DNA of 62,355 nt from a virus. The notes below the pieces were generated by a model, which worked only from the letters and a program-made list of their open reading frames with translations, made no database searches and had not been told where the DNA came from. The DNA is taken from the IMG/VR virus record IMGVR_UViG_3300009499_000010, positions 1 through 62,355 of that record; one strand, given 5' to 3'. Made by a program: the position numbers and the translations under genes. Below, one piece after another: positions 9,700 through 56,038 of this stretch. Position 1 is the stretch's first letter. Every line of letters starts with the position of its first letter.

Positions 9700-10134
9700 A
9701 TGGGCAGATTTTTCTTAGCTGACACACCGGGCCTTCATAAGAAGGAGTTGAAGAGGTCAGAGAGCACTGGAGCTGGCTATGGGAATCTGACTGCGCCTTT
9801 GTTCAGGGCTGAGGATGACATGGTGATGGATGCAATCAGGCTCATCTCCAGCGTAACAACAGCTGGCCATGACACCAACAACTTCACAATCAAAATCATC
9901 AACAAGGGCAACGATGGTTCTGGAACTGATGTAGTTGCGCAAGCTATTACTGATGTTGCTTCTGGTGGACTGAAACAGTTCCAGCCTTTCTCGTTGACGG
10001 TTGACGCAGCCAAGGCTCAGTTGTTAGAGGGCGATGTGCTGGGAGTGGATGTCACAGAACTCAACGCAGGGATGGAGTTCCCAAGATTGGTTTATGAGTT
10101 TGACTTCAAGTATGAGAAGCCAGCGGCAAGTTAA
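9700..10134 (+). CDS. Decoration-like small head protein, paralogue of the gene at 24125
   Basis: Aligns along its whole length with the protein encoded just after the capsid gene: MG...PGLHKK near the start, LF.A.DD, then NNFT.K..N.G..G.GT..VA and a matching C-terminal VLY/FKYEKPA-type end. The pattern fits a small beta-sandwich. By analogy with its paralogue it may decorate the capsid. Its place upstream of the terminase, far from the capsid gene, is unusual. ATG behind AAAGGAGTTGAG. Confidence 0.6.
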   Translation: MGRFFLADTPGLHKKELKRSESTGAGYGNLTAPLFRAEDDMVMDAIRLISSVTTAGHDTNNFTIKIINKGNDGSGTDVVAQAITDVASGGLKQFQPFSLTVDAAKAQLLEGDVLGVDVTELNAGMEFPRLVYEFDFKYEKPAAS

Positions 10135-16172: not shown

Positions 16173-19100
16173 ATGGAGCTTGCGAAAGTCAGCCCACAGT
16201 CTCTCCGAAAGGAGAGTAATTCAGCGCTGCTGAATATGCACTACCACACCCACATGCTCTATGAATGGTGGAAGAAGGGCAGAGACATTCCAATTGAGGA
16301 CGTGAAGAAAGCTCACGACCTTATAGTTGACGAGTTCGTCAAGAGAGAGATGGAGAAAGAAGGAGAACACAGGTCACCGATGGCGCTTCAAGAGCAAGAC
16401 TTGGCAAAAGTCTATCCTTCTGGCGAGAAGAAGGGCAAGAAGATTACACTCAAGAGCTTGCCGAAGTTTGGCGACTTCTATCTTGGGGACAGATTCATCT
16501 CGTTGGTTGGCTCATTGCCCAATAATGGAGAGACTGAGAATGACATTGACTTCTTGATAGCTTGGCCGGAAGATGCTCCAGACGAAATCACAAGACCTAT
16601 TAAGTTCAGACTTTGGCGGCAGTTTCAAGACCCAAAGCTGCAAGCACGATGCTCCTTCCATCTCGACAGCTTTCATGGCCCATTTACAAATTCAGTCCCG
16701 CTATATCGGCTCAAGTGTGAGAGGATAAACCATGACATGGATGTCATCCTTGCTGCTCTGAAACGAGAGCCAACAGCAATGGCCCAAGCAGGGCAATCGA
16801 AGAAGGCAGACAAGATTGAGCCAAGGCGGTTTTTCTATCCGCAAAAGGCAATCAAAGCGCTTGCCATACGCAAGAAGCTGAAAGGGCCATGGGACTATTC
16901 GGAAGCAGTCAAGGAAGCAGCTGCGATGCTTCCCGTTGTCGCAGAGAAGAAGTATGACGGGATGCGTATTATATTAAATAAGGATAACGGCTGGGTCAGG
17001 ATTATGACTGACGGTGGTACAGACGTCACGTCAAGGCTGCCTATGCTCGTTGCGCAGCTGAAGAAGATTCCGCATAAGTCATTTGTACTCGATGCAGAAC
17101 TGGAATGGTGGGAAGATGGAGTCCATCAACCAAGGGAAGAAGTTGCCGCAGCGCTGATGTCGAAAGAGGAGCTTGACGAGAGTTGGCTCATTGCTAATGT
17201 CTTTGAGCTTCTGTATCTTGATGGAAAAGACTTGCACAACTTGCCGTGGGGGGAGCGCCACGAGCAGCTCAAGAAGTTCCCAATCAAGAGAGAGCAACTT
17301 GAGTTCAAGGCAGACGATGAAATGTTGAACAGAGTTCCTTCCCTTATTGCCGAGAAGGAAGCAGACTTGGCAAAGCATATCAAGACTGTCTCGGAGGCAA
17401 AGGCATCAGAGGGAGCGATAATCAAGAGCGCAACAGCGCCTTATCCTCTGACTGGCGCAACAAAGCATATGGTCAAGGCGAAGAAATATGCGACTGTCTT
17501 TGGGAAGGTTATCAAACGCAACCCAACAAAGGTCGCAACTGTCTTCAACTATGACTACGCAATCAGGATTCCAGAAGCAAAAGTTGACCCAGCATCAGTC
17601 ATTGAGATTGGCGGGAAGAAGTATTCACGAACTGGGACTTCATACTCAACGACAGAGAAACTCAACCCAGGCGATGTCTTTGCTCTTTCCTTCCATACAG
17701 TCAACAAGTATACAGACCCAGAGACAGGGAAGGTCAGTGTTCATTTCTATGAGCCTGTGTATGATGGGAAGGTAGCAAGAACAGAGCCAAATACGCTCGC
17801 AGAGGTCGAAACAATTGCAAAGGATGCTGGGCTCATCGGATATAAGGAAGGCAAGCAGACCTTCCGAGAGAATGCTGAGACAATCTTCCTCAAGTTTCTC
17901 GGCACAAAAGGCGAAATTGAAGAAGAGTCACCAGGACACAAGAGACACACAGCTGTTCAAGTTGTTCATCTCGACCATGGCGGGCTGATTGACTTTGGAG
18001 AGACTTGGAAAGGGAAGTTGGACACTGTTCGGACAGCTGCGGAAGGAAGCATCAGGTGGATAGCGCTAACTCATGCTCACCCTGACCATGTTGGCGGGCT
18101 TGAAGGCGAAGAGATTGACATCCCAGTCTACATGACCGCTGAGACAGACAAGCTCCTTCCCAAAGACAAATATCCTATGAAGAATAGGATAATTGTGAAG
18201 GAAGGCAAGAAGGTCGAAGTTGCGCCTGGTTGGGATTTGACAGCTATCTCAGTTGAGCATTCTTCCAAAGCGCCAACTGTTGGCTTCAAGCTCGCAATTC
18301 CAAACAAGGAAGATAAGAGCTATACAATTGGCTACTTCCCAGATGTGGCAGACCTTGACGAAAGAGACTTGAGGGGCATCGACCTTTACATTGGCGATGG
18401 GGCATCGCCCACAAGGCCAATCCTGCGTGGTCAATCGCCGGAAGGCGAAGATGTTGGACATGCTTCGATGAAGCAGCAACTCAAATGGTGCCAAGACATG
18501 GGTGTCCATTCGGCTGCTTTCATACATCAAGGGAAGCAATCAGTTGAGACGGATGACCAGAAGATAATTGATTTGCTCCAACAGGCCTTCCCAAACAAGG
18601 AGATTCTGCTGCCTGATGATGGTGAAGTTCTGGCACTTCCTGAGCACGCGGTGAAGGATGGAGTTTATCTTGTGCCGCCACATGGCGAGTTATTTTGGAA
18701 TGGCGAGAAGGATTTGCTCATCAAAGCAAAAGAGTTCCACATCCTGTCGCAGCATCCGCACTTTCTTGCGTCTGACTTAGTGTATGGAATCATCAAGTTC
18801 AAACCGCCAGAGAAGATTACACTTGCTGAGTTTGCCAAGCTCCGAAACAGGCACCAAATCTCTGAGGCAGAAAGAAAGAAGTGGTGGCCGGACAAAGATG
18901 AACTATATGCGTATGAGATTGAGTCTTTCTTCCCGTGGCACACTCCGAAAAAATACCAATACATCAAAGGGGCACAAACCATCATCAAGAATCTGCAATT
19001 GGTTGAGACGGCGAAGAGAAACATTATGTTTGCCTCAACTGAGGAGTTGAAAGAGGTTGCATACATCCACTCGCGCAAGAAGTTTGCCGGAAGCATTGTC

Positions 19101-21410
19101 AACAAATTCCCGCAAGGCACAAAGGTTGTATTCGACCCAATGTGCGGCACAGCGTCTGTCTTAGTTGAGGCTGCAAGAAGAGGAATGGCAGTTGTTGGAA
19201 ACGACTTCAATCCATATGCCTATTTCTTTGCCAAAGGAATTTTTGAAGGCATTGGCCTTGACTCGGAAGATATGAAGGCGTTGCTTTTCCCGCCAGAGAG
19301 GGAAGGATGGTTCACGCTTCATTACAAAGGACAGCACCCGCAGAATAAAGTCTTGAGAGCGTTTGTGGACAGTGCTGTTCTCAATATCCAAGAGGCATTC
19401 AAAGGTAAGGAGAAGAAACACAACGCAGCAATGGCAGCTGTTGTCTCCTTCCTTGGGAGATTCTTCAGAGGCACGCACACAGGCATTGCTTCCAATTGGT
19501 ATTATCAGGATGTAGATAAGAGCAGAGCAATGCTGAGAAGCTCCATTCTTGAAGTGAATAACCTTATTCAGCAAATTGGCGGGAAGGGAACTATAACAAA
19601 TTTGGATGCATTCTCGATGGAAATTCCTGAGGCAGATGTTATTCTGCTTGACCCACCGATGCTGAAGAAAGGAATCTACAGGCCCGCACTCTCCGAGTAC
19701 AAGACGCGCAATTCAATCCTTATCCAAGACACATTCCGATACAACAAGAACTCAGCGAGAGATTTGGAGAGTTTGCTTGATAAGTTGGCGAAGAAGTGTA
19801 AGACTCTTGTTGTTGTCCCGGAAGATGAAAGTGAACTGGATTGGGAGAGCTTGCTTGCGAAGCGTAAGAAGAATGTCAAGAAATTCCAGATGTCCTACTT
19901 CAAGAAGATTCGCACACCAGGCGCAATCTCCTCTGTGAGCAAATCAAGGATTCAAAAGATGTTCTTGGCTGAGCAGGGTGACCCATATCTGCTCGTGCCG
20001 GATGAAGACAAGGCTCTCAAATATATGGTGCATCATCACTGGCGTGGAAAGGGCTGCCATGCCGATGTGAGATTTGATAGCAAGTTGAAAGGCATGCTCA
20101 TTGGTTGGACTCTTGACGACCTAATGCCTGGTATAGTTGCTGAGCCAGTCCTAACAGCCAAGGATGCTGTTCAAAAGGAAGCCAGCCCTGATAAGTATTT
20201 CAAGATAAACTGGAAGACAGGAATCTGGAAGAAGAGATTGAAAAAAGGCCAAACAACTCCTGTCAATGTTACAATAATGACGCAGAAGAAAGCGCCTGAG
20301 CCGATTGAGTGGATGACGTTTGAAGGAGTTGTCGAGCCAGGTCAGGTAGGAGCCACTAAGAATTTCCCAGGTGTATTTATTATAATAGATAAGGGCAAGA
20401 TTGAATACGGAGCGCAGAAACCATGGTCGCATGAATACTTCTTCAACGGGAAGGCGCTTGACTACAAGGTTGTGATGCGTCAACTGAAGGCAGATTTTGG
20501 TGAGGCGCTGAAAAAGGATAAGGCGCTCCAGCGGCATCTCATTCTTCATCCAGATTTGTTTGATGAAGAAGGTCTTGAAGAAAGCATCGGGGCAATGGAT
20601 AGGGAGCTGTTGGAATCTTTGCCTGATGAGCTGTTCAAAGATTGTTTTGTTGTTGAATCAAAGATGTTTATTGACAACTGCGAAGAGCAGCAAATCATCC
20701 CGCCATCAGAAGAGAAGGTATCAGGCGTCAAGTGGTTTACCATCAAGCCAATAGACCAGACGCCATATGTGCTCTCGGATGAAGCAGTGAAGAAAAAATG
20801 GATGCCGCCTTTGGGTAAGTCTGCTCTTCCGAAAGTCACGCGTGATGCTGTTCCAACGACGCTGAAGTATTGGAACGCAAAGAAACCAACAGAAGCGATG
20901 ATGATGCGTGATGAGTTGGTTGAGCTGCTGAAGAAAGATGAGATTGATTTGCCGAAGTATGACGAGCAGTTGAAGGAAGCGCAGCAAGGCAGGTACGTTC
21001 TCAACTACCATTGGTTTGCGAAAATAGGGCAGAAGAAGAGAGCAGGAGCCAGCGAGTTTCATTTTGACCTATTCCTGCTTGACGGGAAGAAGGAACACTT
21101 TGAGCTTGACCTTGACCCGCTGGAGCATGATACAGTCTCAGCTCATTCCCCAGATAAGGACATGGCACACGATGAGAAGTTGACTGGATTCATCAAGCCA
21201 GGAACCATACCAGGCAATCCTACAAAAGAAACTGGCTCATGGATTGAACCATGGGCAAGCGGCAAAATGCTTGTGCTCGACAGTAAACCTGATTTCAAAA
21301 AGATAAGATTCAGCGGAAAGTTAGAAGGCGTCTGGGTATTCAAAAGAGAGAGCCCAGAAGCGGATTTTTGGCAGGTAGAGAAGAGCCAAGCAGCTCCAGT
21401 CACGACGTAA
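16173..21410 (+). CDS. Giant multi-domain polyvalent protein: NTase, ATP-dependent ligase, MBL, MTase, two LigD-like phosphoesterases
   Basis: 1,745 residues. Visible domains in order: Pol-beta-type nucleotidyltransferase (GS 113-114, D124/D126); ATP-dependent nucleic-acid ligase (K260-YDG motif I, EGAIIKS 413-419, K435/K437) with an OB-like region to about 580; metallo-beta-lactamase fold (HAHPDH 634-639); an ASCH/PUA-like segment (about 870-950); class I methyltransferase (DPMCGTAS 988-995, DPPM 1160-1163); a LigD 3'-phosphoesterase-like domain (HHH 1287-1289, H1296, D1298, R1300) and a second at about 1595-1745 (H1613, H1630, D1632). The set suggests end-processing, ligation and modification of nucleic acid. 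It lies inside the head cluster, so virion packaging is plausible. Substrate unknown. Confidence 0.85.
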   Translation: MELAKVSPQSLRKESNSALLNMHYHTHMLYEWWKKGRDIPIEDVKKAHDLIVDEFVKREMEKEGEHRSPMALQEQDLAKVYPSGEKKGKKITLKSLPKFGDFYLGDRFISLVGSLPNNGETENDIDFLIAWPEDAPDEITRPIKFRLWRQFQDPKLQARCSFHLDSFHGPFTNSVPLYRLKCERINHDMDVILAALKREPTAMAQAGQSKKADKIEPRRFFYPQKAIKALAIRKKLKGPWDYSEAVKEAAAMLPVVAEKKYDGMRIILNKDNGWVRIMTDGGTDVTSRLPMLVAQLKKIPHKSFVLDAELEWWEDGVHQPREEVAAALMSKEELDESWLIANVFELLYLDGKDLHNLPWGERHEQLKKFPIKREQLEFKADDEMLNRVPSLIAEKEADLAKHIKTVSEAKASEGAIIKSATAPYPLTGATKHMVKAKKYATVFGKVIKRNPTKVATVFNYDYAIRIPEAKVDPASVIEIGGKKYSRTGTSYSTTEKLNPGDVFALSFHTVNKYTDPETGKVSVHFYEPVYDGKVARTEPNTLAEVETIAKDAGLIGYKEGKQTFRENAETIFLKFLGTKGEIEEESPGHKRHTAVQVVHLDHGGLIDFGETWKGKLDTVRTAAEGSIRWIALTHAHPDHVGGLEGEEIDIPVYMTAETDKLLPKDKYPMKNRIIVKEGKKVEVAPGWDLTAISVEHSSKAPTVGFKLAIPNKEDKSYTIGYFPDVADLDERDLRGIDLYIGDGASPTRPILRGQSPEGEDVGHASMKQQLKWCQDMGVHSAAFIHQGKQSVETDDQKIIDLLQQAFPNKEILLPDDGEVLALPEHAVKDGVYLVPPHGELFWNGEKDLLIKAKEFHILSQHPHFLASDLVYGIIKFKPPEKITLAEFAKLRNRHQISEAERKKWWPDKDELYAYEIESFFPWHTPKKYQYIKGAQTIIKNLQLVETAKRNIMFASTEELKEVAYIHSRKKFAGSIVNKFPQGTKVVFDPMCGTASVLVEAARRGMAVVGNDFNPYAYFFAKGIFEGIGLDSEDMKALLFPPEREGWFTLHYKGQHPQNKVLRAFVDSAVLNIQEAFKGKEKKHNAAMAAVVSFLGRFFRGTHTGIASNWYYQDVDKSRAMLRSSILEVNNLIQQIGGKGTITNLDAFSMEIPEADVILLDPPMLKKGIYRPALSEYKTRNSILIQDTFRYNKNSARDLESLLDKLAKKCKTLVVVPEDESELDWESLLAKRKKNVKKFQMSYFKKIRTPGAISSVSKSRIQKMFLAEQGDPYLLVPDEDKALKYMVHHHWRGKGCHADVRFDSKLKGMLIGWTLDDLMPGIVAEPVLTAKDAVQKEASPDKYFKINWKTGIWKKRLKKGQTTPVNVTIMTQKKAPEPIEWMTFEGVVEPGQVGATKNFPGVFIIIDKGKIEYGAQKPWSHEYFFNGKALDYKVVMRQLKADFGEALKKDKALQRHLILHPDLFDEEGLEESIGAMDRELLESLPDELFKDCFVVESKMFIDNCEEQQIIPPSEEKVSGVKWFTIKPIDQTPYVLSDEAVKKKWMPPLGKSALPKVTRDAVPTTLKYWNAKKPTEAMMMRDELVELLKKDEIDLPKYDEQLKEAQQGRYVLNYHWFAKIGQKKRAGASEFHFDLFLLDGKKEHFELDLDPLEHDTVSAHSPDKDMAHDEKLTGFIKPGTIPGNPTKETGSWIEPWASGKMLVLDSKPDFKKIRFSGKLEGVWVFKRESPEADFWQVEKSQAAPVTT

Positions 21411-24124: not shown

Positions 24125-24556
24125 ATGGGGAAAGAAGCATTGTATGATATTCCTGGCCTTCACAAGAAGGTGGTCAGGATACCGGAGACAGCGGCTGGCA
24201 CAGACAAGCAGTATCCGCTGTTCAAGGCAGGTGATGACATTGAGGTAAAAGAAGTCAATCTCATCCCTGATGCAGCTCTGGCTGGGGTGGACGACAACAA
24301 CTTCACCGCAAAGGTGATGAATGTCGGCGCTCTCGGTGTTGGGACAACCGAAGTTGCTACAGGGCCTGAGCAGTTAGCTGCTGCTGACTGGGTGGCCCTG
24401 AAGCCCGTTGCTCTGACAGTCAGCGCTACTCTGGCCAATCGCCAGGTGGCAGCTGGAGAAGTCCTGGTATACAAAAGTGACCAGAAGGGCACAGGACTTA
24501 TTGACCCGGTCAAGGCTGTCGAGGTCTTGTACCAGTACAAGAAACCAGCTATATAG
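24125..24556 (+). CDS. Decoration-like head protein
   Basis: 143-residue protein directly after the major capsid gene, the classic position of head-decoration proteins that stabilise the shell. Rich in Val, Ala and Gly with short beta strands and few helices. It is a full-length paralogue of the protein encoded at 9700 (PGLHKK, then DDNNFTAKVMNVGALGVGTT). Isolated between two sets of hairpins, so its transcript level may be set separately. The function is inferred from position and fold pattern. Confidence 0.65.
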   Translation: MGKEALYDIPGLHKKVVRIPETAAGTDKQYPLFKAGDDIEVKEVNLIPDAALAGVDDNNFTAKVMNVGALGVGTTEVATGPEQLAAADWVALKPVALTVSATLANRQVAAGEVLVYKSDQKGTGLIDPVKAVEVLYQYKKPAI

Positions 24557-25056: not shown

Positions 25057-26043
25057 ATGGCAACTTTGGAAGAAATTAAAGAGAAGATAGCAACGCTCAT
25101 CAAGGATTCTGACCAGAAACTTGAGCCAGATGACATCGAGAATTGCATCGCTCAAGCAGCAGAGCACTTCAACAAGGAGATTCCAAGAAAGGCAGTTCAG
25201 AAAGTTACACCAACTGATTCCAGTGCAATCTTCCAACTGCCAGATGATTGGGATGAGGATTTCTCGGAGTTGCGTGCCATAGAATTTCCAACAGACCAAG
25301 CCCCACGTACATTCCTTCTCGCGCATGATGATTATGAGATTGCGGAGAATGAGATGTCGGTTTTGGAGTCTGGCGATGTAGACAATAAGCTGGACAACTG
25401 GAACTTGAGCGGTATCGTCTTTGGTTTCAATACAGATGCAAGCCGGAAGCTGTATGTGACTCTTACAGATTCAGCCGGAACTCGGAAAGTTGAAATCTTC
25501 AGCGACTCGGCAAAAGCAGATGAAAACAAAGTTGCGGAAGGGACAAAAATTGGCGACGGGACTTTGACGCTCATAGAGAAAAGAAATTCAGGGCTCTCTG
25601 GAACAGTTGACGTCGCCTATTCAAACGGTGAAGAGGTTGTCTTGACTGCATATGATAGAGTGCTCCAATTCCAGTCTGCCCCAGGAGCCAACAACGCATT
25701 CAGGATTCTCTACACCAAGAGAGTGAAAGGTGTCAGCAGCTTTGAACTTGCGAAGATTCCAGGCCGATTGGTTGAGCCGTTTGTTCAACTCTGTGCTCAT
25801 TACTGCGCCAAGGCTCTTGCCTTCTATTATGCGAATACATCAACACCATCCCTTGAAGGCGACATAGTTGACTACAGAACAAAGTCAGAGGAGTATAGAG
25901 AATTGGCAGACACAACTCTCGCAAACTGGGAGAAGGTTGCGCTTGAAGCTGGTAGAAGAGAGTTGGCTTATGGCGAGAAGGATTTGGATATAGACTTTGC
26001 TTGGGGAGAAGAGAAATTGTTTCATCTGAGGCGGCATAGATAA
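25057..26043 (+). CDS. Head-tail adaptor-like protein with inserted repeat domain
   Basis: The N-terminal (1-100) and C-terminal (200-328) parts look like a helical head-tail connector (adaptor) subunit, given their place between decoration and HK97 gp10-like genes. Residues about 104-195 are a beta-rich insert starting SGDVDNKLDNW and ending SGLSGTVDVAYSNGEEVVLT. This is one of five copies of a domain shared with the genes at 27052 and 30864. The insert would project from the connector. Confidence 0.6.
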   Translation: MATLEEIKEKIATLIKDSDQKLEPDDIENCIAQAAEHFNKEIPRKAVQKVTPTDSSAIFQLPDDWDEDFSELRAIEFPTDQAPRTFLLAHDDYEIAENEMSVLESGDVDNKLDNWNLSGIVFGFNTDASRKLYVTLTDSAGTRKVEIFSDSAKADENKVAEGTKIGDGTLTLIEKRNSGLSGTVDVAYSNGEEVVLTAYDRVLQFQSAPGANNAFRILYTKRVKGVSSFELAKIPGRLVEPFVQLCAHYCAKALAFYYANTSTPSLEGDIVDYRTKSEEYRELADTTLANWEKVALEAGRRELAYGEKDLDIDFAWGEEKLFHLRRHR

Positions 26044-26044
26044 C

Positions 26045-26548
26045 ATGGCATTCAAACTTGACATTAAGGTAACTTCCAAAGGTCAGATAGCAAAGGGCAC
26101 AGCTCCAGGGAAATTTCTCAGGGCAATTGCCGATGCGCTTAATGAAGGCGGATTGTATATTGAGCAAGAGGTTGCGAAAGGCACGCCTGTCAACCGTGGA
26201 CATCTTCGTGGTTCCATTTCGCATAGTGTAAAAGGTGCTGGCACTTCTTGGGCTTATGGTCGTGTATTCTCTCCTCTCGAATATGCTAAGCCAGTCGAAG
26301 AGGGTCAGACGCCACATTGGCCACCGCTCAACCCAATAGTTCGATGGGCAAAAAGAAAGCTGAAATTGAAAAAGAAACAGAGATACATAGTGGCCACCAA
26401 AATAGCCCTGAAGATTTTTCAGGTCGGGACTTTGCCTGTGCATATGTTCAAGAAAGTTGCAAAGGCAAGCAAGACAGCAAGAGTTCTACGGAGAATTTTT
26501 GAGAAGCACACAAAGAAGTTTGTGAGTAAAATGAAACCAAAGTCATGA
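26045..26548 (+). CDS. HK97 gp10-like head-tail connector
   Basis: Resembles the HK97 gp10 family of neck proteins that complete the head-tail joint: an N-terminal strand and helix, then GTPVNRGHLRGSISH (residues about 48-62), the family signature, and a Y..PVEEGQ.PHWPP segment. Strongly basic C-terminus. It starts two bases after the previous gene. Confidence 0.8.
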   Translation: MAFKLDIKVTSKGQIAKGTAPGKFLRAIADALNEGGLYIEQEVAKGTPVNRGHLRGSISHSVKGAGTSWAYGRVFSPLEYAKPVEEGQTPHWPPLNPIVRWAKRKLKLKKKQRYIVATKIALKIFQVGTLPVHMFKKVAKASKTARVLRRIFEKHTKKFVSKMKPKS

Positions 26549-26555
26549 GGTCGAT

Positions 26556-27035
26556 ATGTCCGAATGGGTTGAAGGTAAACTTGAAGAAATCCAGGCAGTG
26601 CTTGGGGCAATCACAGAGTTAGACCATGTGTACAAGCGCAGCCGTTGGAGCAATGACCCAGCTGTTGTGAAGAAATTGTTTGCTGAGATTTTATCTGGGA
26701 AGAGACAGAGAATCAACACATGGATGATAGGAAGAGAAGGGGTGGTGGAGAATGGCCCATTGGCGCAGGTCAGATACATCGCAGTTCATACGTTTTTAAT
26801 AAAAGGATACTTGAGCTTCAATGACGAGAAAGATACAGAGACAGAGTTGAACGTCATGATAGACTTGATAAGGACTGCTCTGCGTGGCAACCAAACCATC
26901 TGGAATGTTTGCTCTGAAATTGTACAAGAGACTCCGCAAGTTAGGCTTGTAGGCTATGCTTTCTTTGGAGAGATATTCTGCAATTATTGCGAAATTGCGC
27001 TTGAGGTTGAAGAACATAACTTTGTAACTTATTAG
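26556..27035 (+). CDS. Tail-completion (tail terminator-like) protein
   Basis: 159 residues, alpha/beta, between the gp10-like and tail-tube genes, where the protein that caps the tail tube is normally encoded. The pattern (N-terminal helix, long strand region, central ETELNVMIDLIRTAL helix, C-terminal strand) fits that family, but no decisive motif is visible. ATG behind TGAGGTCGAT. Confidence 0.6.
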   Translation: MSEWVEGKLEEIQAVLGAITELDHVYKRSRWSNDPAVVKKLFAEILSGKRQRINTWMIGREGVVENGPLAQVRYIAVHTFLIKGYLSFNDEKDTETELNVMIDLIRTALRGNQTIWNVCSEIVQETPQVRLVGYAFFGEIFCNYCEIALEVEEHNFVTY

Positions 27036-27051
27036 TGGAAGGAGTGGAAGA

Positions 27052-28629
27052 ATGGCAAAGCAGATGACAGCAATTCGATGTGGCAAAGAGTTCAGGCTTG
27101 CCATAGCTGTCCAGTCGAAAGAAGGAGTGGCAGCTCAGTCAGCCAACGTCTTGGAAACATTGTGGGCAACCAATGGCGGCTGGACAAGAGGTCGAACAAT
27201 TGAAGACATCGCCGGAAGTTATGGGACAATCGCAAAGCCGAAGCAAGGCAGAATCCCAATGGCCTTTGACCCACAAGTTACAGCAACAATCCTTCCCACT
27301 CGGAGAAGTCTGCCAGCGCTCCTTGCCACTCTCTACGGAGCAAGCGTCAGTAGGCAAGTGCAAGGGCAGATAGTTGAGACAGGCGATGTAGATGATGAGC
27401 TGGATAACTGGATTCTCAACGGAGCCATCCCAAAACACAACACAGACGTAAACAATAAACTCTACGTTGACCTGACAAATCCAAGCGGCACGACTTACAA
27501 GGTAGAGATATACAAGGACTCTGGCAAATTGAGCCTTGTAGCTTCAGGACAGAGAGATGCCGATGGGGCACTTAGCTTCACACAGGAAAACAATTCAGGA
27601 CTCTCCGGCAGCGTAGTAGTTGCTTGGACAGACGGCGAGAGCGTGGTGCTGGAAGTCAAACAGCTTGCATATGAACACTTAGCAAATACTTTCGACAAGT
27701 TTCTTACTATCTGGTGGGAAGATGGAAAGAAGACAAGACGGCTGGTTGATTGTGTCATAACAGAGATGAGCTTTGAGTCAATTGAGAAGAGTTCGCTGCG
27801 TGCCACCGTCTCAATCTATGGCAAAGAGTTGACTGACGACCTTGACCCTCTGCTCTTCACCGTCCCAACTCAATACGATGTCTATTGCCACAAGAGATTT
27901 GGCTTGACAGACATGCCTGGCTCGCAGATAGTAACAGAATCTGGCGATGTAGATGATGAGCTGGATAACTGGATATTTGCTGGCGTGGTCATGTATCAGA
28001 ACACAGACTCGCAGAGAAAGTTATATGCGGATTTGACTGATGCAGCTGGCACTCGTAAAGTTGAAGTGTACAAAGACTCTGCAAAGGCCGCAGCAGACAA
28101 AGTGGCTGAAGGGACAAAAGTTAGTGATGGAACTTTGGCACTTGTGGCAGTAAATGATTCTGGCCTGAGCGGTTCAGTTGATGTAACATACTCAGACGGA
28201 GAATCAGTCGTGTTGACTGTTGAGGACAATGTCGAGATGTCTGTGAGAAGTTTCATGTTTTCGATGACACACGAGTATGAAGGATTTCACGGCAACAGCA
28301 ACTATCCGCTCAAGCACGTCAAAGAAGCATTCTTGGCAGTGAAAGGGAATCTCAAAAGCAAGTACACTGACGAGATGGATGACTTTTTCAGACGCGCAGA
28401 CCAAGACCCAGTCGATGTCAAGGAACTTGAGGCCAAGTACAGTCTTGGAGATGAGTTTTTTGAAGTTGAGTTTCACGCAGTTGACTTTGAAGGGGAACCG
28501 CCAGCATTCACAGATGGGAAGTTTGATGATTTCGACAGCGACTTTGAAGCACTCGGAGAATCTACTGATGCTGGTGGAGTCATTGAACCGCTTGTCATGT
28601 GGTTGGACTTAGCTGATATGACTCCGTAA
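27052..28629 (+). CDS. Major tail tube protein with two inserted repeat domains
   Basis: The core (residues 1-107, 204-296, 392-525) is beta-rich and sits where the major tail protein is encoded, before the G/GT genes. Two copies of the domain also found at 25057 and 30864 are inserted at about 108-203 and 297-391. They share a 32-base identical stretch (27382-27413 and 27943-27974), so they duplicated recently. The inserts should face outwards on the tail tube. The product is unusually long for a tube protein because of them. Confidence 0.7.
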   Translation: MAKQMTAIRCGKEFRLAIAVQSKEGVAAQSANVLETLWATNGGWTRGRTIEDIAGSYGTIAKPKQGRIPMAFDPQVTATILPTRRSLPALLATLYGASVSRQVQGQIVETGDVDDELDNWILNGAIPKHNTDVNNKLYVDLTNPSGTTYKVEIYKDSGKLSLVASGQRDADGALSFTQENNSGLSGSVVVAWTDGESVVLEVKQLAYEHLANTFDKFLTIWWEDGKKTRRLVDCVITEMSFESIEKSSLRATVSIYGKELTDDLDPLLFTVPTQYDVYCHKRFGLTDMPGSQIVTESGDVDDELDNWIFAGVVMYQNTDSQRKLYADLTDAAGTRKVEVYKDSAKAAADKVAEGTKVSDGTLALVAVNDSGLSGSVDVTYSDGESVVLTVEDNVEMSVRSFMFSMTHEYEGFHGNSNYPLKHVKEAFLAVKGNLKSKYTDEMDDFFRRADQDPVDVKELEAKYSLGDEFFEVEFHAVDFEGEPPAFTDGKFDDFDSDFEALGESTDAGGVIEPLVMWLDLADMTP

Positions 28630-28654
28630 TGAGTCAAGGCAGAAGGGAGTAGTG

Positions 28655-29110
28655 ATGATGGAAAACAATGTGTTCAAGTTTGAGGTTCCGGGCCAGGAAG
28701 TTACTCTGGTGCTGGAAAAATGCAAGGAAGGGGAGTTGACAGACTTTTCAATGCGCTATGCTGCGAAAGCAAAAGCCTTTGAAAGCCTGAAAGCAAAGGC
28801 AGCTCTGTTGGAATCAATGCCAGCTGAGAAGATTCCAGTTGATTATGGAGAGCGTCTGGAGCAATATACCCTTCAGCAAATGCGGCTGGCTCTTGAACTA
28901 CACAAGCTGATAACCAACACCATGAGAGGGAAGATTGTTAAGACTCTTGGTGGAGAGGAAGGGCTGGATGCGAGCACGCAGGAAGGTTGGGTCAAAGTTT
29001 TTAATGCCAAGGAAGGCCAGGGCATGCAGAATCTGACTTTGCTGGCGGCAGGATTCATCTCTGCACACTCGCCGGAAGAGATGATATTAAAAAACTCAGT
29101 GAGGGCATAG
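28655..29110 (+). CDS. Tail assembly chaperone (G-like)
   Basis: About 150 residues, mostly helical, between tail tube and tape measure genes: the position of lambda G-type chaperones that hold the tape measure protein during tail assembly. ATG at 28655 or 28658 (a GTG at 28652 is also possible) behind AAGGGAG. A slippery A AAA AAC lies five codons before the stop, in the correct phase to shift into the next frame. Product G would end at 29110 and product GT at 29475. Confidence 0.75.
   Translation: MMENNVFKFEVPGQEVTLVLEKCKEGELTDFSMRYAAKAKAFESLKAKAALLESMPAEKIPVDYGERLEQYTLQQMRLALELHKLITNTMRGKIVKTLGGEEGLDASTQEGWVKVFNAKEGQGMQNLTLLAAGFISAHSPEEMILKNSVRA
29089..29095 (+). promoter_or_regulatory. 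Slippery heptamer for -1 ribosomal frameshift
   Basis: The zero frame reads TTA AAA AAC, giving the classical A AAA AAC heptamer. After a -1 slip the frame is open through 29475, with no stop between. The following frame has an ATG at 29134 but no ribosome-binding site. The G/GT gene position makes programmed frameshifting very likely. Confidence 0.8.
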
Positions 29111-29475
29111 AAGTCCTGATTAATGGAACAACTATGCCCGTTGAAAACTGCGAAGAATGCAGAAAATGGTTGATTGATGAAGAGACAGGTCATAAACTTA
29201 GAGAGCGCAAGCGTGGAGAGGAACCCCCGTGTGAGAATTGTGCAAGAGCATTTGACTGGGAGCCAGAGGCATTACTTGGCCTCAAGCTCGCAAACCAATG
29301 TCTTGACTTACAGACTCTTTCACTCAGGCAACTCCCAGACACCGGTGGCATACGTGACCAGAATCCGAGATTGCTTATGCTGATAGAGGTTGTGCGGCAT
29401 CATCTTGGGGAGAAGAAGAAAAAGGAAGAAGATAAAGTTGAGAAGCAGATTCAAGACTTGGCAAAGAAGAGGTAG
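29095..29475 (+). CDS. T extension of tail chaperone GT (made by -1 frameshift)
   Basis: Reached from the G frame after the slip at 29089-29095; an internal ATG at 29134 lacks a ribosome-binding site. It encodes CEEC and CENC (a zinc ribbon) followed by a helical part and a Lys-rich end. In lambda-like phages the T part binds the tail tube protein while G binds the tape measure. It ends three bases before the tape measure start. Confidence 0.7.
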   Translation, partial: LSEGIEVLINGTTMPVENCEECRKWLIDEETGHKLRERKRGEEPPCENCARAFDWEPEALLGLKLANQCLDLQTLSLRQLPDTGGIRDQNPRLLMLIEVVRHHLGEKKKKEEDKVEKQIQDLAKKR

Positions 29476-29477
29476 CA

Positions 29478-30854
29478 ATGGCTGAAGAAGTTTCCATTCA
29501 TTTTAAGGCAACAGGGGTTGGGGCAACCTCAGGCGCTTTTTTGGCTATCAAAGATGAATTGACAGGACTCGCCAAGGCACCAATCAAAGCTACAAAAGAA
29601 TCCGCAAAAGCTACATCTTCTCTTGCTTCCCAATGGGGCAATCTTGGAAACGTTATTACAGGCGTCAACGCAGCAATGAGTCTTTTCGACAGAACTATTG
29701 GGAGAGTGATAAGGGGTCTTTGGGGTTTGGCAGCTGCTGGTGGCGCAGAGATTGGAGTGGCGCAAGCGTTCAGAGGTTTAACTGAAGCAGCCGGAGAGAG
29801 CGCAGATGTAATGCTTACAAAGGTAAGAGCTGCTTTGGATGGGACAGTTGATGACCTTACGATTATGCGGAATATCAACTTTGCTCTCCAACTCGGATTG
29901 CCAGGCACCGGAGAGGAGATGGCAGAGCTTGCCGATTCAGCGCAGAGACTCGGAAGGGCAGTTGGTCGTGGCCCTGTCATGGCCCTTCAGGATTTGGTCA
30001 TTGGCATTGGCCGCCAATCAAGAATGATTCTTGACAACCTTGGCTTGTTGGTTGACACAGAAAAGGCATATGAAACATATGCGAAGACACTGGGCAAGAC
30101 AGTTGAGGATTTGACTGATGCAGAAAAGAAGCAAGGATTTTACAATGCTACGATGGAATCAGCTCGTGAGAAGGTTAAGAAGATTGGCGAAGAGCAGTTG
30201 ACTGCCACAGACCATTTGTCGAGAGTTACAGCAGCTTGGGCAAACTTCAAGAGCGCAATTGCCAAAATGATTGCAACATCTCCGGCGCTCACTGCCTTCA
30301 CAGACACTATCATCGGGAAGTTACAAGAAATTGCGCAATGGGCAGAGACAAACCAAGAAGCTGTCACTGGTTTCATATCAGATGCAATAAATTTCCTGAA
30401 GGATTTAACAGATGTGTTATTGGCTGCGGTTATTCCGGCATTGAAGGTTCTGATGGCTGTTGCCAAGGTTGCTATGACAGTAATTACTCCTCTCCTGAAG
30501 GCAGCTGCTTGGATTGTCGAGTCCATCGGTGCTCCAGGAGTTGGTGCGGTGCTTGGAGGAGTAATTGGTGGGCTCACAGGCGGGCCCATTGGCGCAGCAC
30601 TTGGAGCTGGTGCTGGTCTTGCTGCTGGATTGGCTGGTGGTGGAGCTGCACCAATCGAAGCAGTAGTCAATGTTGAGCCAGTTATTAATGTGGCAGTTCA
30701 ACAGACCGGGATTGCAACCAAGGAAGCAGTTGACAAAGCATTTGATGATGCCAAAGAAGCCACATTTGCAAGGCTATCTGAAATAGATACTGTGCTTGAA
30801 AGTAACGCAGCCAAGCTTGACCAGGAAATTAAGAATAGGCTTTACAGACGATAG
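29478..30854 (+). CDS. Tape measure protein
   Basis: 458 residues, almost entirely helical, with Ala/Gly-rich hydrophobic segments (about 320-395, including the LGGVIGGLTGGPIGAALGAG region), directly after the tail chaperones. Such proteins set tail length and are ejected with DNA. At about 0.15 nm per residue it would give a short tail of roughly 70 nm. No peptidase or lysozyme domain is visible. Confidence 0.8.
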   Translation: MAEEVSIHFKATGVGATSGAFLAIKDELTGLAKAPIKATKESAKATSSLASQWGNLGNVITGVNAAMSLFDRTIGRVIRGLWGLAAAGGAEIGVAQAFRGLTEAAGESADVMLTKVRAALDGTVDDLTIMRNINFALQLGLPGTGEEMAELADSAQRLGRAVGRGPVMALQDLVIGIGRQSRMILDNLGLLVDTEKAYETYAKTLGKTVEDLTDAEKKQGFYNATMESAREKVKKIGEEQLTATDHLSRVTAAWANFKSAIAKMIATSPALTAFTDTIIGKLQEIAQWAETNQEAVTGFISDAINFLKDLTDVLLAAVIPALKVLMAVAKVAMTVITPLLKAAAWIVESIGAPGVGAVLGGVIGGLTGGPIGAALGAGAGLAAGLAGGGAAPIEAVVNVEPVINVAVQQTGIATKEAVDKAFDDAKEATFARLSEIDTVLESNAAKLDQEIKNRLYRR

Positions 30855-30863
30855 GAGGCAGTA

Positions 30864-32333
30864 ATGGCGATTGATTACACGACCATCTTTGAGAGGTTGG
30901 GCTGGTTTCTTGGCACAAGAAGGCGAGTGAACTATTTGGCTGAGGTTATGGCCTTGTATGCAAGCAAGGTGTGGACAATCCTCAGTGGCGCAGAGATGTC
31001 CAATTGGGCTTTCACTGGGGTCAAGCGTGGAGCGAACACTGACGTTGACGGGAAGCTCTATGCGGAGCTGGTTGATTTGGGGGCACCTGGTGGGCCTTAT
31101 CAAGTTGAGGTGTTCAAGGACGCTGCCAAAGCTCCGGGTGACCTTGTGGCCAGTGGCCAGATAGTTGCGACCAGCGGCACAATCGGCCTCACTGAGAAAA
31201 ACAATTCCGGGCTAACAGGCTCTGTAGATATTGTATGGACAATTGACGACACAACCTGCGAGCTGATTCTTGACATTGCCTGGCCACGTCAAACAGATAG
31301 CTGGCTCAAAGATAATTCAGACAAAGACAGGGCAGATGCGCAGAGCGACCTTGACACAGGAACACAAAACATCCTTGAGGGCATTTCGGCAACTTTGAGC
31401 GGAATCAACAGCAGCATGCTCAGCAATATGGATTCTAACTTCTGGCTGGTTTTGGTTGCTATCCTAATAGATAGCGGCGAAGCAGGCGTTTGGACTCCTA
31501 CAGAAACAGTCCAGGCTGGTGGTGAAGTTGTTGTATCTAAGTCAGGTGTGTTGCAAGATTTGATTGATTTCATGATAGATGACGTTGAAAGCGTTCAAGA
31601 GAACGCAGTGACTTTCCCTGCTCTATCAGGAGTAGCATCGCCAGTAGGAAGTTTTGCCCAAACGAGCAGAGTTGCTTATCCGTATGTGCGCAACGAAAAA
31701 ATAAAATTGCGTTGCGTCAAGACCATAACAGGCACTTTGGAAGAGTTTGAGTTGACTGGCGGTCTAACTGGCGCAGCACCTAACAGGTTGCGTCTTGGAG
31801 CTACTTTCAGAAGTTTGGATTTGGGGGTTGAGCTACTTCTGGAGCGAGATTTGACCACCACAAGTACAGCTCTTACGAATATTGTCTTGACTGGCGAAAG
31901 CAGTGCCAACATCAGCAGTGAAGGCAAGTTGTACACCAGGCTTACCAACCCAACAGGCACAACTCTTCTCTTAGAGGTATTCACGCACAGCAGTCGCACG
32001 GAAGAGTTCAAAGTTGCTGAGGGGCAGAGGGATGGCAACGGAGTAATAGTTGCTACTGCTTATGGCGCCTTTGGAGGGAGCCTGCGAATCCAAGCTGATG
32101 TAGCCTATGTAGGTGACGAAGATGCGGAGATGAATCTTCAGATTTCGCAGCTCAATGATGTTTGGGAAAGTACCCTCACCAACGATGAAGCGGGAATCTT
32201 CCAAACGATGATAGGCCGAATATACTCAGGTGCGGCATTCCCAGATGACGCTGTCCCAACTATTGATGAAAGGACAGCGCGAATTGTAATTGATGAGATA
32301 ATTAAGAGAGACGGCTGGGAGGGCCAGGAGTAG
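30864..32333 (+). CDS. Tail protein with two copies of the repeat domain
   Basis: Residues 1-40 are a helical start. Residues about 41-137 and 336-429 are divergent copies of the beta-rich domain of the 25057 and 27052 genes (NTDVDGKLYAELVD and NNSGLTGSVDIVW in the first; SEGKLYTRLTNPTGTT in the second). The middle is helical then beta. It follows the tape measure gene, so a distal tail or tail-tip role is likely; the exact family is not recognised. Confidence 0.6.
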   Translation: MAIDYTTIFERLGWFLGTRRRVNYLAEVMALYASKVWTILSGAEMSNWAFTGVKRGANTDVDGKLYAELVDLGAPGGPYQVEVFKDAAKAPGDLVASGQIVATSGTIGLTEKNNSGLTGSVDIVWTIDDTTCELILDIAWPRQTDSWLKDNSDKDRADAQSDLDTGTQNILEGISATLSGINSSMLSNMDSNFWLVLVAILIDSGEAGVWTPTETVQAGGEVVVSKSGVLQDLIDFMIDDVESVQENAVTFPALSGVASPVGSFAQTSRVAYPYVRNEKIKLRCVKTITGTLEEFELTGGLTGAAPNRLRLGATFRSLDLGVELLLERDLTTTSTALTNIVLTGESSANISSEGKLYTRLTNPTGTTLLLEVFTHSSRTEEFKVAEGQRDGNGVIVATAYGAFGGSLRIQADVAYVGDEDAEMNLQISQLNDVWESTLTNDEAGIFQTMIGRIYSGAAFPDDAVPTIDERTARIVIDEIIKRDGWEGQE

Positions 32334-38043: not shown

Positions 38044-39090
38044 ATGTCACTGAGCATAGGGTTTCCAAGAGCTTATGAAGAACATAATGTGTTCGGGCAA
38101 CACGTTAAGGAAATGGCCAAAGCGAGAATCCAGCCATGTTTGACTCTTGCCCGCCATCCAAGTTTTCATGCACCAAAGATTAGAAGGATACCAAATACAA
38201 CAATCTTTGGCCAAATCTTTGAGGGAAGTCCTGCACAGACAGAAGGATTCTCAGGTCAGGCTTCAGTGGTCGAAGCTCCTCTGCTTCAGGAAAGGCTTAT
38301 ACTTAAAATCAAATATGCGTTCCAAGACGGGCCTGGAGGAAATCCTGATGGGAGTAAGTCGGCATTCTTCCAGATGAATTTCAGGCCAGCTTCAGTTGAA
38401 GAAGATTTTGTGAGCAGAGCAATTGGCAGTGCACTTGGGATTACTCCTCAATACGAGTTTACAAGCATAGGCGCTTTGTTAACACAGCCAACTTCATTAG
38501 TAGCAGTCCCACCAGCGTTTGTTCATAAGGAAAACTTTCAGTTGATGATTCCACAAGCAATTCTTATTGCTAATGACTTTGTTGCCATAAAGGATTTCTT
38601 CCGAGATATCAATCATCCTGAAGATTCAGGAGACAGCGTATACATAGTTGATTTGGACTGGGAAGTAATAGAAACAGATTTGGGGGATGAAGACATGTAC
38701 ATGTTTGAGGGGTTGGTAGAGGATGTCGTGGTTGGCATAGGCGCTACAGTAGACACAATAGTTCCAATCGACGTTCCATCTCCTGACGTATTTTCCGCAA
38801 AGGGGATTCTGAAGCACATTGAAGTCACAGCTTCTACGCCACCAGGCACTTCCACAAACTTCACTGTGGAGGTCTATACAAAATTTGACTACTCGGCAGC
38901 CAGCAGGATTTTCAGGCAGACAGGAATCAGCTCTGTTGCTGACCCATACGGTTTGAAGGAGTTAGCTGCTGATATTATCTTCAAGAACACAGACTCCCCT
39001 GTCAGCAAACGGCTATATGTTAGGATAATAGAGGTTTCAGGGATTGCCACGACATTTGACATAATTCTGAAAGGCCCGGAACTGAAATAA
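38044..39090 (+). CDS. Tail protein A of a paralogous pair
   Basis: 348 residues, beta-rich, paralogous to the gene at 39817. Shared features: SIGALLT near the middle, a DFFR.I.H.ED segment, a DEDMYMFEG-type acidic turn, and a C-terminal domain with GTSTNFTVEVY, NTDSPVSKRLYV and a KGPELK end. A 29-base stretch (38843-38871) is identical in the paralogue. Probably a tail-tip or fibre-base protein. Confidence 0.6.
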   Translation: MSLSIGFPRAYEEHNVFGQHVKEMAKARIQPCLTLARHPSFHAPKIRRIPNTTIFGQIFEGSPAQTEGFSGQASVVEAPLLQERLILKIKYAFQDGPGGNPDGSKSAFFQMNFRPASVEEDFVSRAIGSALGITPQYEFTSIGALLTQPTSLVAVPPAFVHKENFQLMIPQAILIANDFVAIKDFFRDINHPEDSGDSVYIVDLDWEVIETDLGDEDMYMFEGLVEDVVVGIGATVDTIVPIDVPSPDVFSAKGILKHIEVTASTPPGTSTNFTVEVYTKFDYSAASRIFRQTGISSVADPYGLKELAADIIFKNTDSPVSKRLYVRIIEVSGIATTFDIILKGPELK

Positions 39091-39091
39091 G

Positions 39092-39820
39092 ATGACTATT
39101 GCTGAAGGGAAAATTGAACTCATTGAGCTGCTCAAGAATTTGGTCTATGGCTTGAGGATTGAGTGGGTTAGTCTTTCGCAAATTCGTATTTTGCCCGGTC
39201 AATGTATCAGTGCTGATGGCCAAGAGCTAATAGTCTCACTTTCTAACATTGCCCTTGACATAACAGCTTCCGGTGCTGGTGGGTTGGACACAGGAGTTGA
39301 AGCGCCAAGCAGTTGGTATTATGTTTGGCTCATTAAGAACATTGCCACAAACGATGTTTCGGCTGTTCTGTCAGCAAGTTCTACATCCCCAACTCTTCCA
39401 GCAGGATACACAAAGAGACGTAGAATTGGGGCGGTCAGGAATGACGCAAGCAGCAATTTCTTGAATTTCCTGCAATTTGGTATTGGGGTCGATAGAGAGT
39501 ACCAGTACAGGGAGCAAGTCAACACTACTCTGCGAGTTCTTTCTGGAGGCACAGCGGCAACTTGGACAGATATAGATTGTAGTGCGTTCGTGCCATCAAC
39601 AAGTGTGTGGCCTTATCTCTCTGCCCAAAATGACAAAACAGCAGCGGGAACTGCTGGCGAGTTAAGAACAAAAGGCTCGACAGTAATTCAAAGGCGAGTA
39701 ACAACAAGTGATGGTAGAATTTTCTATTTGGAAACCGATGCCGCACAGACAATCCAGTATCAAAGAATCAGCGCGGCAACTATCAATATAAGTGTCTTGG
39801 GATTTCGGGAAGAGTTATGA
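39092..39820 (+). CDS. Tail fibre / receptor-binding-like protein, 242 aa
   Basis: Not assigned to a family. It starts with a helical segment, then a beta-rich body and a C-terminal beta domain (YLSAQNDKTAAGTAGELR, ending ATINISVLGF) of the kind often found at fibre tips. It lies between the two paralogous tail genes and overlaps the second by four bases (ATGA). Confidence 0.5.
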   Translation: MTIAEGKIELIELLKNLVYGLRIEWVSLSQIRILPGQCISADGQELIVSLSNIALDITASGAGGLDTGVEAPSSWYYVWLIKNIATNDVSAVLSASSTSPTLPAGYTKRRRIGAVRNDASSNFLNFLQFGIGVDREYQYREQVNTTLRVLSGGTAATWTDIDCSAFVPSTSVWPYLSAQNDKTAAGTAGELRTKGSTVIQRRVTTSDGRIFYLETDAAQTIQYQRISAATINISVLGFREEL

Positions 39821-40941
39821 TAAGCCGGAAAGTAGTAATAGAAGCAACAACAGGCAAAGTGCTGAGACATGGTTACTCGGATTTTGCTAATGACCATACG
39901 CTTGAATCTGGTACGGAGCAGATTATTGAATCAGAGTTTGTTTTTGCTCCAGACATTGACATTTGGAATTGGTATTGGACAGGTTCGACTTTCATTCCAC
40001 GGGGCAAACATATTTATGTAGAGGAAGCAAAGCCTTTCTTTGCCTTGTATACACATAGAATATATACCACACCAAAAGTCAAGAAAATCTTAAATACAAA
40101 TCTTCGGGCCAGGGAGTTCAAAGAAGACAGGTCAGAGGGCTTTGAAGCTGAAATACTCTTGCTTAATGAAGTTGGGTACGAAAGAGAAGTTGCTGTAATT
40201 ATCAAATATGCATTTGAGCATAGTATGTCGGCCAAAGCTGCGTTCATGCGAATGAATTATCGCATTCTACCTGTTGGGCAAGAATTTGCGAATAACCCGC
40301 CTGCCATAAGAAGCATTGGCGCTCTACTCACAGACATAGCAAGAGCGCCTGCAGACCCGGAGGCTTTCACTCAACTTGAAAATTCTGAAATTACAATTCC
40401 AGGTATTTTGTTGCAGGCTGGAGACATTATTTTGGTAGAGGATTTTTACAGGGAGTTTACACATCAAGAGGATACAGATGATGACCTTTGGGCTATTAAC
40501 TTTGAGGCAGTAACACGTACGCAAACTTTGGAGGATGATAACGTGTACTTATGTGAAGGTGAAAAGAGTTCTGGCGTGATTGCTCAAGGCAATTCCGAAA
40601 CAGTAGCAGTAGATGTTGATGTCGCTGCCCCTGGTGTATTCTCCAAGAAGGGAGAACTTGAGGCAATCAAAGTATTAGCGACTGGAGGCGGAGCAGGCAC
40701 TTCCACAAACTTCACTGTGGAGATTTTTGAGAAAGCGGACTTGACAAAAATGATATATCGCAAGACTGCAAATGACTCCACAGCAGCACCGTGGTATGGC
40801 TTGCATGAATGTTGCGTGGGCATCCCATTCAAGAATCAAGATAGCCCGAAGCTTGCGAAACTATATGTCAAAATTACAAATGTGGCTGACTCCGGCTCTA
40901 CTACTTTTGATGTTTGTTTGAGAGGCAAGGAATTAAAGTAA
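39817..40941 (+). CDS. Tail protein B of a paralogous pair
   Basis: Overlaps the previous stop (ATGA). The first about 70 residues differ from paralogue A and resemble a small fibre-associated domain (YWTGSTFIPRGKHIYV). From about residue 75 it aligns with the 38044 protein: IIKYAFE, RSIGALLTDI, DFYREFTHQEDTDDD, GTSTNFTVEIFE and a RGKELK end. The identical 29-base stretch is 40694-40722. Confidence 0.6.
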   Translation: MISRKVVIEATTGKVLRHGYSDFANDHTLESGTEQIIESEFVFAPDIDIWNWYWTGSTFIPRGKHIYVEEAKPFFALYTHRIYTTPKVKKILNTNLRAREFKEDRSEGFEAEILLLNEVGYEREVAVIIKYAFEHSMSAKAAFMRMNYRILPVGQEFANNPPAIRSIGALLTDIARAPADPEAFTQLENSEITIPGILLQAGDIILVEDFYREFTHQEDTDDDLWAINFEAVTRTQTLEDDNVYLCEGEKSSGVIAQGNSETVAVDVDVAAPGVFSKKGELEAIKVLATGGGAGTSTNFTVEIFEKADLTKMIYRKTANDSTAAPWYGLHECCVGIPFKNQDSPKLAKLYVKITNVADSGSTTFDVCLRGKELK

Positions 40942-54741: not shown

Positions 54742-54822
54742 ATGGCGAAGAGGGCAACACAATTAAATAAGGTTCGGAAGGTCGTGGCTGACCTTCCCCA
54801 GAAGAAAGGAGAGGGCAGATGA
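54742..54822 (+). CDS. Possible leader peptide, 26 aa
   Basis: A short frame with AAGGGAGAGACGA before its ATG; its stop overlaps the ATG of the AAA+ gene (ATGA). The close coupling suggests a small translated leader. It may not be a functional protein. Confidence 0.35.
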   Translation: MAKRATQLNKVRKVVADLPQKKGEGR

Positions 54823-56021
54823 GGCCAGGGCAAAAGCGTGACCCAGAACCAGGAACCATGAATGCGGTCAAGAACTTCCTGGTGAAAGCTCTGGAGGGTA
54901 ATGAATCATGGACAGCCGATGCGGTCAAAAAGAAGTACAAGCTAACAGCCAAAGAGGTCAAGGCACTGGCTGTTAGGATTGTCTGTGACCAAAAAGGCAT
55001 CATCACAGAGTACATTGCGAAGGTTGTGCCAAAGGGCAGAAGAAGCAGAAGAGGAAGGAAGTCAACAACCTTCTTCAATGGCTTCCAAGTCCAAGACTCC
55101 TCTGGCAAAGGAAAGGATGCCGGAGAGGTTCTTGAAGAGGCACGAGTTGACGTGCCTGAATTTCTGGAAGGCTACATTCCAGAAGAAGTCAGCCTTGAGG
55201 CATATATCCCAAGGAAGATTGGCGAGAAGTATGACCTTGAGATTCTCGCTCAGGCTTTCCGAGAGCGCATGAACGTCTTGCTTGTTGGCGAATCAGGAAC
55301 TGGCAAGAACGCAGTGGTCAAAGCATTCTGCGCAGCGCTTGGTTTGCCGCATAAGCGTATCAACTTGAATGGCGGCAGCACAGTCGAAGACATGATTGGC
55401 AGCCGTGAGCTTGAAGATGGTGAGACAACTTTCCGTGACGGAGTCATAACACAGTTCTGCCGCCATGGTGGTGTTGTCGTGCTTGATGAAGTCAACGCGG
55501 CTGACCCGGAGCAGTTGTTTGTGCTCCATGGTCTGACTGATGATTCACGAGCGCTAACCCTGACGCAGAAAGGAGAAGGTGGCGAAGTATTGAAGGCATC
55601 TGATAACTTCATGGTTGTCGGCACCATGAATCCTCTGACCTATGAAGGCACGCGGCGCTTGAACGCTGCTTTTCTTGATAGGTTTGCCATCGTCATGTTC
55701 TATGACTGGGACAGGGATATTGAAGCGCAACTCATTGGCGATAAGAAATTGCTTGAGTTTGCCGAGAAGGTGCGCGAGTTGTACCGCACCAGGGAAATAA
55801 CCACCCCAGTCACTACAAGGACTCTTCTTCACTTCCTCAAAACAGAGAAGTTGTTTGGCCGCAAGACGTCTGTGGAATTGATGCAAAGCAGATTCCCAGC
55901 TGAGGAAGCAGCGGCAGTCAAAAACTTCCTGACCTTGCTTTATGATGAACCAACGATGGTCAAGGCCGCGCAGGGAAGTAAAGTTGATGTTGATGTTGAT
56001 GAAGAAGATGATGATTGGTAA
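54819..56021 (+). CDS. MoxR/CobS-like AAA+ ATPase
   Basis: GESGTGKN (157-164) is Walker A and LDEVN (222-226) Walker B; TRRLNAAFLDRF follows as sensor/arginine-finger region. This is the MoxR/CobS type of AAA+ ATPase that remodels a partner VWA protein. Residues 1-130 are a basic helical extension. The C-terminus is acidic (DVDVDEEDDDW). It is paired with the VWA gene that starts 17 bases after its stop. Confidence 0.85.
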   Translation: MRPGQKRDPEPGTMNAVKNFLVKALEGNESWTADAVKKKYKLTAKEVKALAVRIVCDQKGIITEYIAKVVPKGRRSRRGRKSTTFFNGFQVQDSSGKGKDAGEVLEEARVDVPEFLEGYIPEEVSLEAYIPRKIGEKYDLEILAQAFRERMNVLLVGESGTGKNAVVKAFCAALGLPHKRINLNGGSTVEDMIGSRELEDGETTFRDGVITQFCRHGGVVVLDEVNAADPEQLFVLHGLTDDSRALTLTQKGEGGEVLKASDNFMVVGTMNPLTYEGTRRLNAAFLDRFAIVMFYDWDRDIEAQLIGDKKLLEFAEKVRELYRTREITTPVTTRTLLHFLKTEKLFGRKTSVELMQSRFPAEEAAAVKNFLTLLYDEPTMVKAAQGSKVDVDVDEEDDDW

Positions 56022-56038
56022 GGAAGGAAGGTGCTGGA

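Follow-up and report, generated by a model that had tools for sequence, protein, structure and literature searches.

The DNA considered here raises the question of why one protein domain should recur in several virion proteins of a single phage, and whether it belongs to those proteins or has been added to them. In a 62,355-nt IMG/VR virus record, the whole of which is referred to as the window, one domain, about 95 residues long, was found five times, in three plus-strand ORFs (Table 1). When the copies were aligned, every pair scored above all 200 shuffles, with Z values from 6.1 (c4/c5) to 49.9 (c1/c3), as expected of a single domain family. A profile scan of the whole window in six frames gave no sixth copy, and the count of five in three proteins made by the first-pass annotation was exactly reproduced. 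Pairwise identity among c1 to c5 was 28-64% for amino acids and 41-65% for DNA. The three motifs by which the domain had first been described fit c1, c2 and c3 well and c4 partly, but the first and third are absent from c5. The flanks of the five copies showed no similarity to one another above that of shuffled sequence, and thus the copies have nothing but the domain in common. Likewise, neither flanking repeats nor duplicated target sequence was found at the copies above the level of shuffles.

Table 1. Positions in the window of the three proteins, their domain copies and the tract common to two of them
Feature	Position	Strand	Remarks
Neck adaptor (SU10_adaptor-like), 328 aa, carries c1	25057-26043	+	Weak match to Pfam SU10_adaptor
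Domain copy c1	25360-25659	+	In adaptor ORF 25057-26043, at putative hairpin turn
Tail-tube-position protein, 525 aa (core ~330 aa), carries c2 and c3	27052-28629	+	Assigned by gene order and PHROG 290
Domain copy c2 (tube site 1)	27367-27666	+	In ORF 27052-28629
32-bp tract in c2	27382-27413	+	Identical to 27943-27974
Domain copy c3 (tube site 2)	27925-28230	+	In ORF 27052-28629
32-bp tract in c3	27943-27974	+	Identical to 27382-27413
Third tail protein (pt), 489 aa, carries c4 and c5	30864-32333	+	Homologues in relatives
Domain copy c4 (pt site 1)	30972-31280	+	In ORF 30864-32333
Domain copy c5 (pt site 2)	31845-32153	+	In ORF 30864-32333; most divergent of the five copies

Two of the copies had been noted to share 32 identical bases, and these lie in c2 and c3. 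The tract covers 10 consecutive shared residues with identical codons, whereas elsewhere in this pair the codons agree for no more than about 10 of the 44 residues in common. For this reason a short and recent local transfer of sequence between c2 and c3 is likely.

The identities of the three carrier proteins were drawn from gene order, profile matches and homologous loci from viral contigs (relatives, designated by L numbers), which were compared site by site. Genes for a terminase-like and a portal protein (both by PHROGs), a Mu F-like protein and a Phage_capsid_4-family capsid protein lie upstream of the adaptor gene; next downstream come an HK97-gp10/Neck1-like gene, ORF 26556-27035 and ORF 27052-28629, with the tape measure gene at 29478. 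The adaptor matches the SU10-type adaptor family (PF24175) at 2.6e-4 with 21.9 bits, below the cut-off of 27; its homologue in L029 reaches 27.9 bits, above that cut-off, and the adaptor core profile aligns over 12 relatives. The second protein, encoded between neck/terminator genes and chaperone/tape measure genes, had been named tail tube. What stands behind this name is its place in the gene order and the match of its core, with the domains removed, to PHROG 290 'minor tail protein' (5.2e-8 at best, in a relative, and 0.0021 in the window). A tblastn search of isolate phages with the tube protein returned nothing significant, and the adaptor and tube cores gave only chance-level matches to PDB sequences. 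An internal duplication in the tube core was considered and dropped after hhalign of its halves proved negative, and a model of the whole tube protein from four homologues was set aside at a pLDDT of 37. The third protein, pt, has homologues in L006, L029, L024, L025, L034, L035, L038, L063, L064, L078 and L079. Its earlier description as a post-tape-measure protein holds for the window, but in L029 pt precedes the tape measure, and its position is therefore not fixed.

Comparison with the relatives shows that the copies are insertions, not core sequence, at four of the five sites. The adaptor lacks the domain in seven relatives (L009, L011, L017, L018, L019, L021 and L029), where the core profile runs through. 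Tube site 2 is empty in L029, which has the short turn TVTDNGQSKDLAV in its place and a filled site 1. In pt, both sites are filled in the window, L006 and L029, site 2 alone in L024, L025, L034, L035 and L063, site 1 alone in L064, and neither in L038; with the domain left out, the cores of both pt groups are homologous (hhalign probability 98.4%). The presence of the domain thus varies between relatives on a conserved core, which is what decoration by an inserted domain should look like. The sites themselves are probably hairpin turns, judging from the short Gly/Asn/Asp-rich segments found there in empty homologues. That the copies are instead the normal core of their proteins, one of the two outcomes by which the earlier interpretation could fail, can be practically dismissed, because relatives have empty sites in the adaptor, at the second tube site and at the two pt sites. 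Only tube site 1 would agree with such a reading: it is filled in all four known tube homologues, so far without an empty counterpart, and c2 could therefore be functionally required.

The sites also change their contents, with a turnover that is unusually clear. The adaptor copy lies at profile position ~94-101 in the window and L006, but at 58, some 40 positions earlier, in L007. In the adaptor of L013 (12565-13461), an unrelated GETITGGTSGATATV-type insert occupies positions 93-98, the same putative hairpin as the window copy. The pt homologues of L078 and L079 lack the domain and carry another insert near site 2, which in L078 is CBM_4_9-like (22.6 bits, below the cut-off of 25.9); L079 has a stretch similar to this region of L078, without a listed match. 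Empty sites, the relocation in L007 and other inserts at the same places all support the earlier view of the domain as mobile. In a tree of the copies, those of the adaptor and tube proteins of the window, L006 and L007 group together (support 99). Monophyly of copies by site was not rejected for any site (AU test, p 0.07-0.33), so the shape of the tree by itself is no proof of copying from site to site, nor of independent insertions, and the relocation is read from position only.

A confident structural model was obtained with AlphaFold2 for a tube copy of L006, which is 65% identical to c3, using an alignment of 13 copies (pLDDT 96.1, pTM 0.88). The predicted fold is an all-beta sandwich of eight strands with no helix, in which the first and last elements are strands (residues 2-5 and 90-97). 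With strands predicted at both ends, the domain could sit in a turn and leave the fold of its host protein undisturbed. Foldseek found no match to the model at E <= 0.001 in the PDB or BFVD. When the candidates were re-aligned, the periplasmic beta-sandwich of Wzc came first with Z 6.5 (an end-to-end alignment of 81 residues at 2.9 A), followed by flagellin (5.7), FlgL (5.1) and then C2 domains, with FlgK also among the neighbours; at Z values up to 6.5, a common strand arrangement may be all that is shared. A resemblance to OspA covered only about half of the domain and was taken as a shared beta-meander.

No convincing match for the domain was found in Pfam, NCBIfam, PHROG or PDB sequences. 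It had been noted as comparable to Ig-like insertions in other phages but of an unfamiliar sequence type, and an ordinary catalogued Ig/BIG member that has drifted beyond the profiles is the explanation to be weighed here. This explanation concerns membership and would go with any function, and the weak and scattered matches of 13 isolated copies lend it some substance (Big_1 at 1.4e-4 in one copy, BIg21 at 0.083, Big_3_5 at 0.14). We consider it improbable, since no family is consistent across the copies, and none of the Pfam Ig families scored above cut-off for the three window proteins. The re-aligned PDB chains, led by Wzc, flagellin and FlgL, contain no Ig domain, although this absence is no test of membership and does not exclude an Ig fold. 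A match of the tube protein to Cdh1_DBD_1 (PF18196; 29.4 bits, cut-off 26.4) places residues 102-155 on model positions 8-61 of 120; it covers half of the model and occurs in 3 of 13 copies, and was taken as spurious. By the libraries searched, the domain probably constitutes a new family, and one that would work like a known kind of decoration.

Outside this phage, a tblastn search of isolate phages with the domain gave nothing significant. It was found in other phage proteins, including a second head-tail adaptor family (L031, PHROG 442) and two proteins of L026. The domain is not confined to phages: cellular surface and flagellar proteins carry it as well. Two proteins from Nitrospirota MAGs, L036 (1436 aa) and L037 (1667 aa), have at least four copies each; L036 also has VWA, InlB-type repeats and a sub-threshold SLH match, and the layout of L037 is similar by eye. 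One copy each is present in a lipoprotein-like ORF (L053, MAG G004) and an FG-GAP-like ORF (L057, MAG G002), both so described by eye. In the phylum Planctomycetota, to which MAG G002 belongs, 45 of 294 sampled genomes (~15%) had a match, some of which may be prophage genes. Nitrospirota, the phylum of the Thermodesulfovibrio MAG G001, had a match in 1 of 245 sampled genomes, and the domain is thus rare there.

Two Planctomycetota-phylum genomes encode a FlgL of ~980 aa with four copies of the domain (L076 5678-8617, L077 5532-8483). The identity of this protein is supported in L076 by Flagellin_N (7.3e-13) and by adjoining FliD, FlgK and FlgE, and the order of neighbours is the same by eye in L077. 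In several genomes of the phylum, a domain-bearing protein of 221 aa adjoins an SU10-type capsid gene. Since Planctomycetota and Nitrospirota use the domain in surface, lipoprotein-like and flagellar junction proteins, it is an extracellular module common to phages and bacteria.

We believe, with a probability of roughly 0.6, that the domain is a promiscuous extracellular beta-sandwich module which sits in hairpin turns, decorates the exterior of neck and tail, and touches the host envelope or a surrounding polymer weakly and at many points. Hairpin turns at the surface of neck and tail proteins would have received an autonomous sandwich of ~95 residues, and because these proteins form rings of repeated subunits, the domain would stud the outside of neck and tail many times, probably as a reusable decoration that is sticky or protective. 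The contacts would be made before the tail tip engages its receptor. We infer exposure on the virion, adhesion and the existence of a ligand; adhesion is suggested by the extracellular company that the domain keeps and by published decorations on other phages. In the Douge phage, Ig-like domains of the capsid and tail tube bind host glycans (PMC13033339), and 936 lactococcal phages carry CBMs on neck, tail tube and distal tail, two of which were shown to bind hosts (PMC6669499). The adaptor of SU10 has fibre-docking loops that protrude radially (PMC9509320).

A counterpoint comes from the marine phage R4C, in which an Ig-like domain of the adaptor was assigned by its authors to local stability, not adsorption (PMC10276861), and one of the five window copies, c1, is likewise in an adaptor. 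This is the precedent for the main rival to adhesion, namely that the same mobile domain, free of any ligand, stiffens the neck and tail or mediates contacts between subunits, as the constant filling of tube site 1 might also suggest. Such a role appears unlikely to us: a required interface is hard to reconcile with four of five sites empty in relatives and with the relocation in L007, and a contact specific to tails leaves unexplained why lipoprotein-like, VWA and flagellar surface proteins have the domain. Alternatively, the domain may be baggage with no ligand, one that spreads promiscuously since it can fold by itself and turns tolerate it. Fast divergence within one genome (28-64% identity) and the turnover of sites, with unrelated inserts replacing the domain, are in keeping with this explanation, but no copy is broken or out of frame, and one core motif is retained in phage and bacterial copies alike, which makes this explanation quite improbable.

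Compared with known decorations, the adhesive module proposed here is close in design to the Ig-like domains of tailed phages (I-set, FN3 and Big_2; Fraser et al. 2006, cited in PMC10276861), which are also accessory beta-sandwiches on structural proteins, in their case of head and tail and often attributed to horizontal transfer. It differs in that it has no consistent Ig sequence match and is inserted in internal turns, with five copies in three proteins, two of which have two each. The R4C domain, which likewise falls outside the Pfam Ig families, is also a beta accessory placed peripherally on a neck adaptor; however, no relatedness is shown, and the PDB sequence search with the window domain returned no phage protein. 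The CBMs of 936 phages follow one strategy over neck, tail tube and distal tail and vary in presence between relatives, as here, but use a different module for each protein instead of one reused family. The inserted domains of FlgL, FlgK and flagellin are weak structural neighbours, and the window-type domain itself occurs in Planctomycetota FlgL; the flagellar domains of known structure do not match it in sequence, and Z values below 8 may reflect a common arrangement alone. Wzc, the best structural neighbour, has an unrelated context and 17% identity.

More tentatively, the domain may be an unnamed extracellular domain common in Planctomycetota that is exchanged between bacterial appendages, including the flagellar hook-filament junction, and phage necks and tails, with defined hairpin turns in phage adaptors and tail proteins serving as reusable slots for successive decorations. 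Most phage decorations come to notice by matching known Ig or CBM models, and the libraries searched miss this family; a profile of it would annotate many proteins now called 'hypothetical'. The pt proteins with two, one or no copies provide a natural series for studying the function of decoration. Since FlgL and other surface proteins share the domain with phages, phage and host copies can be compared directly.

Some other features were observed in these loci. In two Planctomycetota-phylum genomes, G500 (L078 1175-11329) and G446 (L079 845-10614), a compact cluster adjoins argS and comprises an SU10-type capsid gene (PF17236, 2e-81 in L078), the 221-aa domain protein, a pt homologue, two large ORFs and a possible portal. 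Identity between the two is 89% for the capsid, 78% for argS and 64% for the domain protein, and a similar gene order is found in L066, L068 and L072; the cluster looks like a retained capsid locus. In the window, the interval between portal and capsid holds a 1745-aa ORF (16173-21410) that by eye resembles a fusion of ligase-like, metallo-hydrolase-like and methylase-like parts. Small paralogues (profile match 1e-19) adjoin the capsid gene (24125-24556) and lie upstream of the terminase (9700-10134), and two further paralogous proteins (7e-47) are encoded downstream of the tail genes at 38044-39090 and 39817-40941. At 54819-58411, an AAA_5/MoxR-like ATPase (5.6e-27) precedes a protein that matches VWA weakly, a pairing as in bacterial MoxR-VWA systems.
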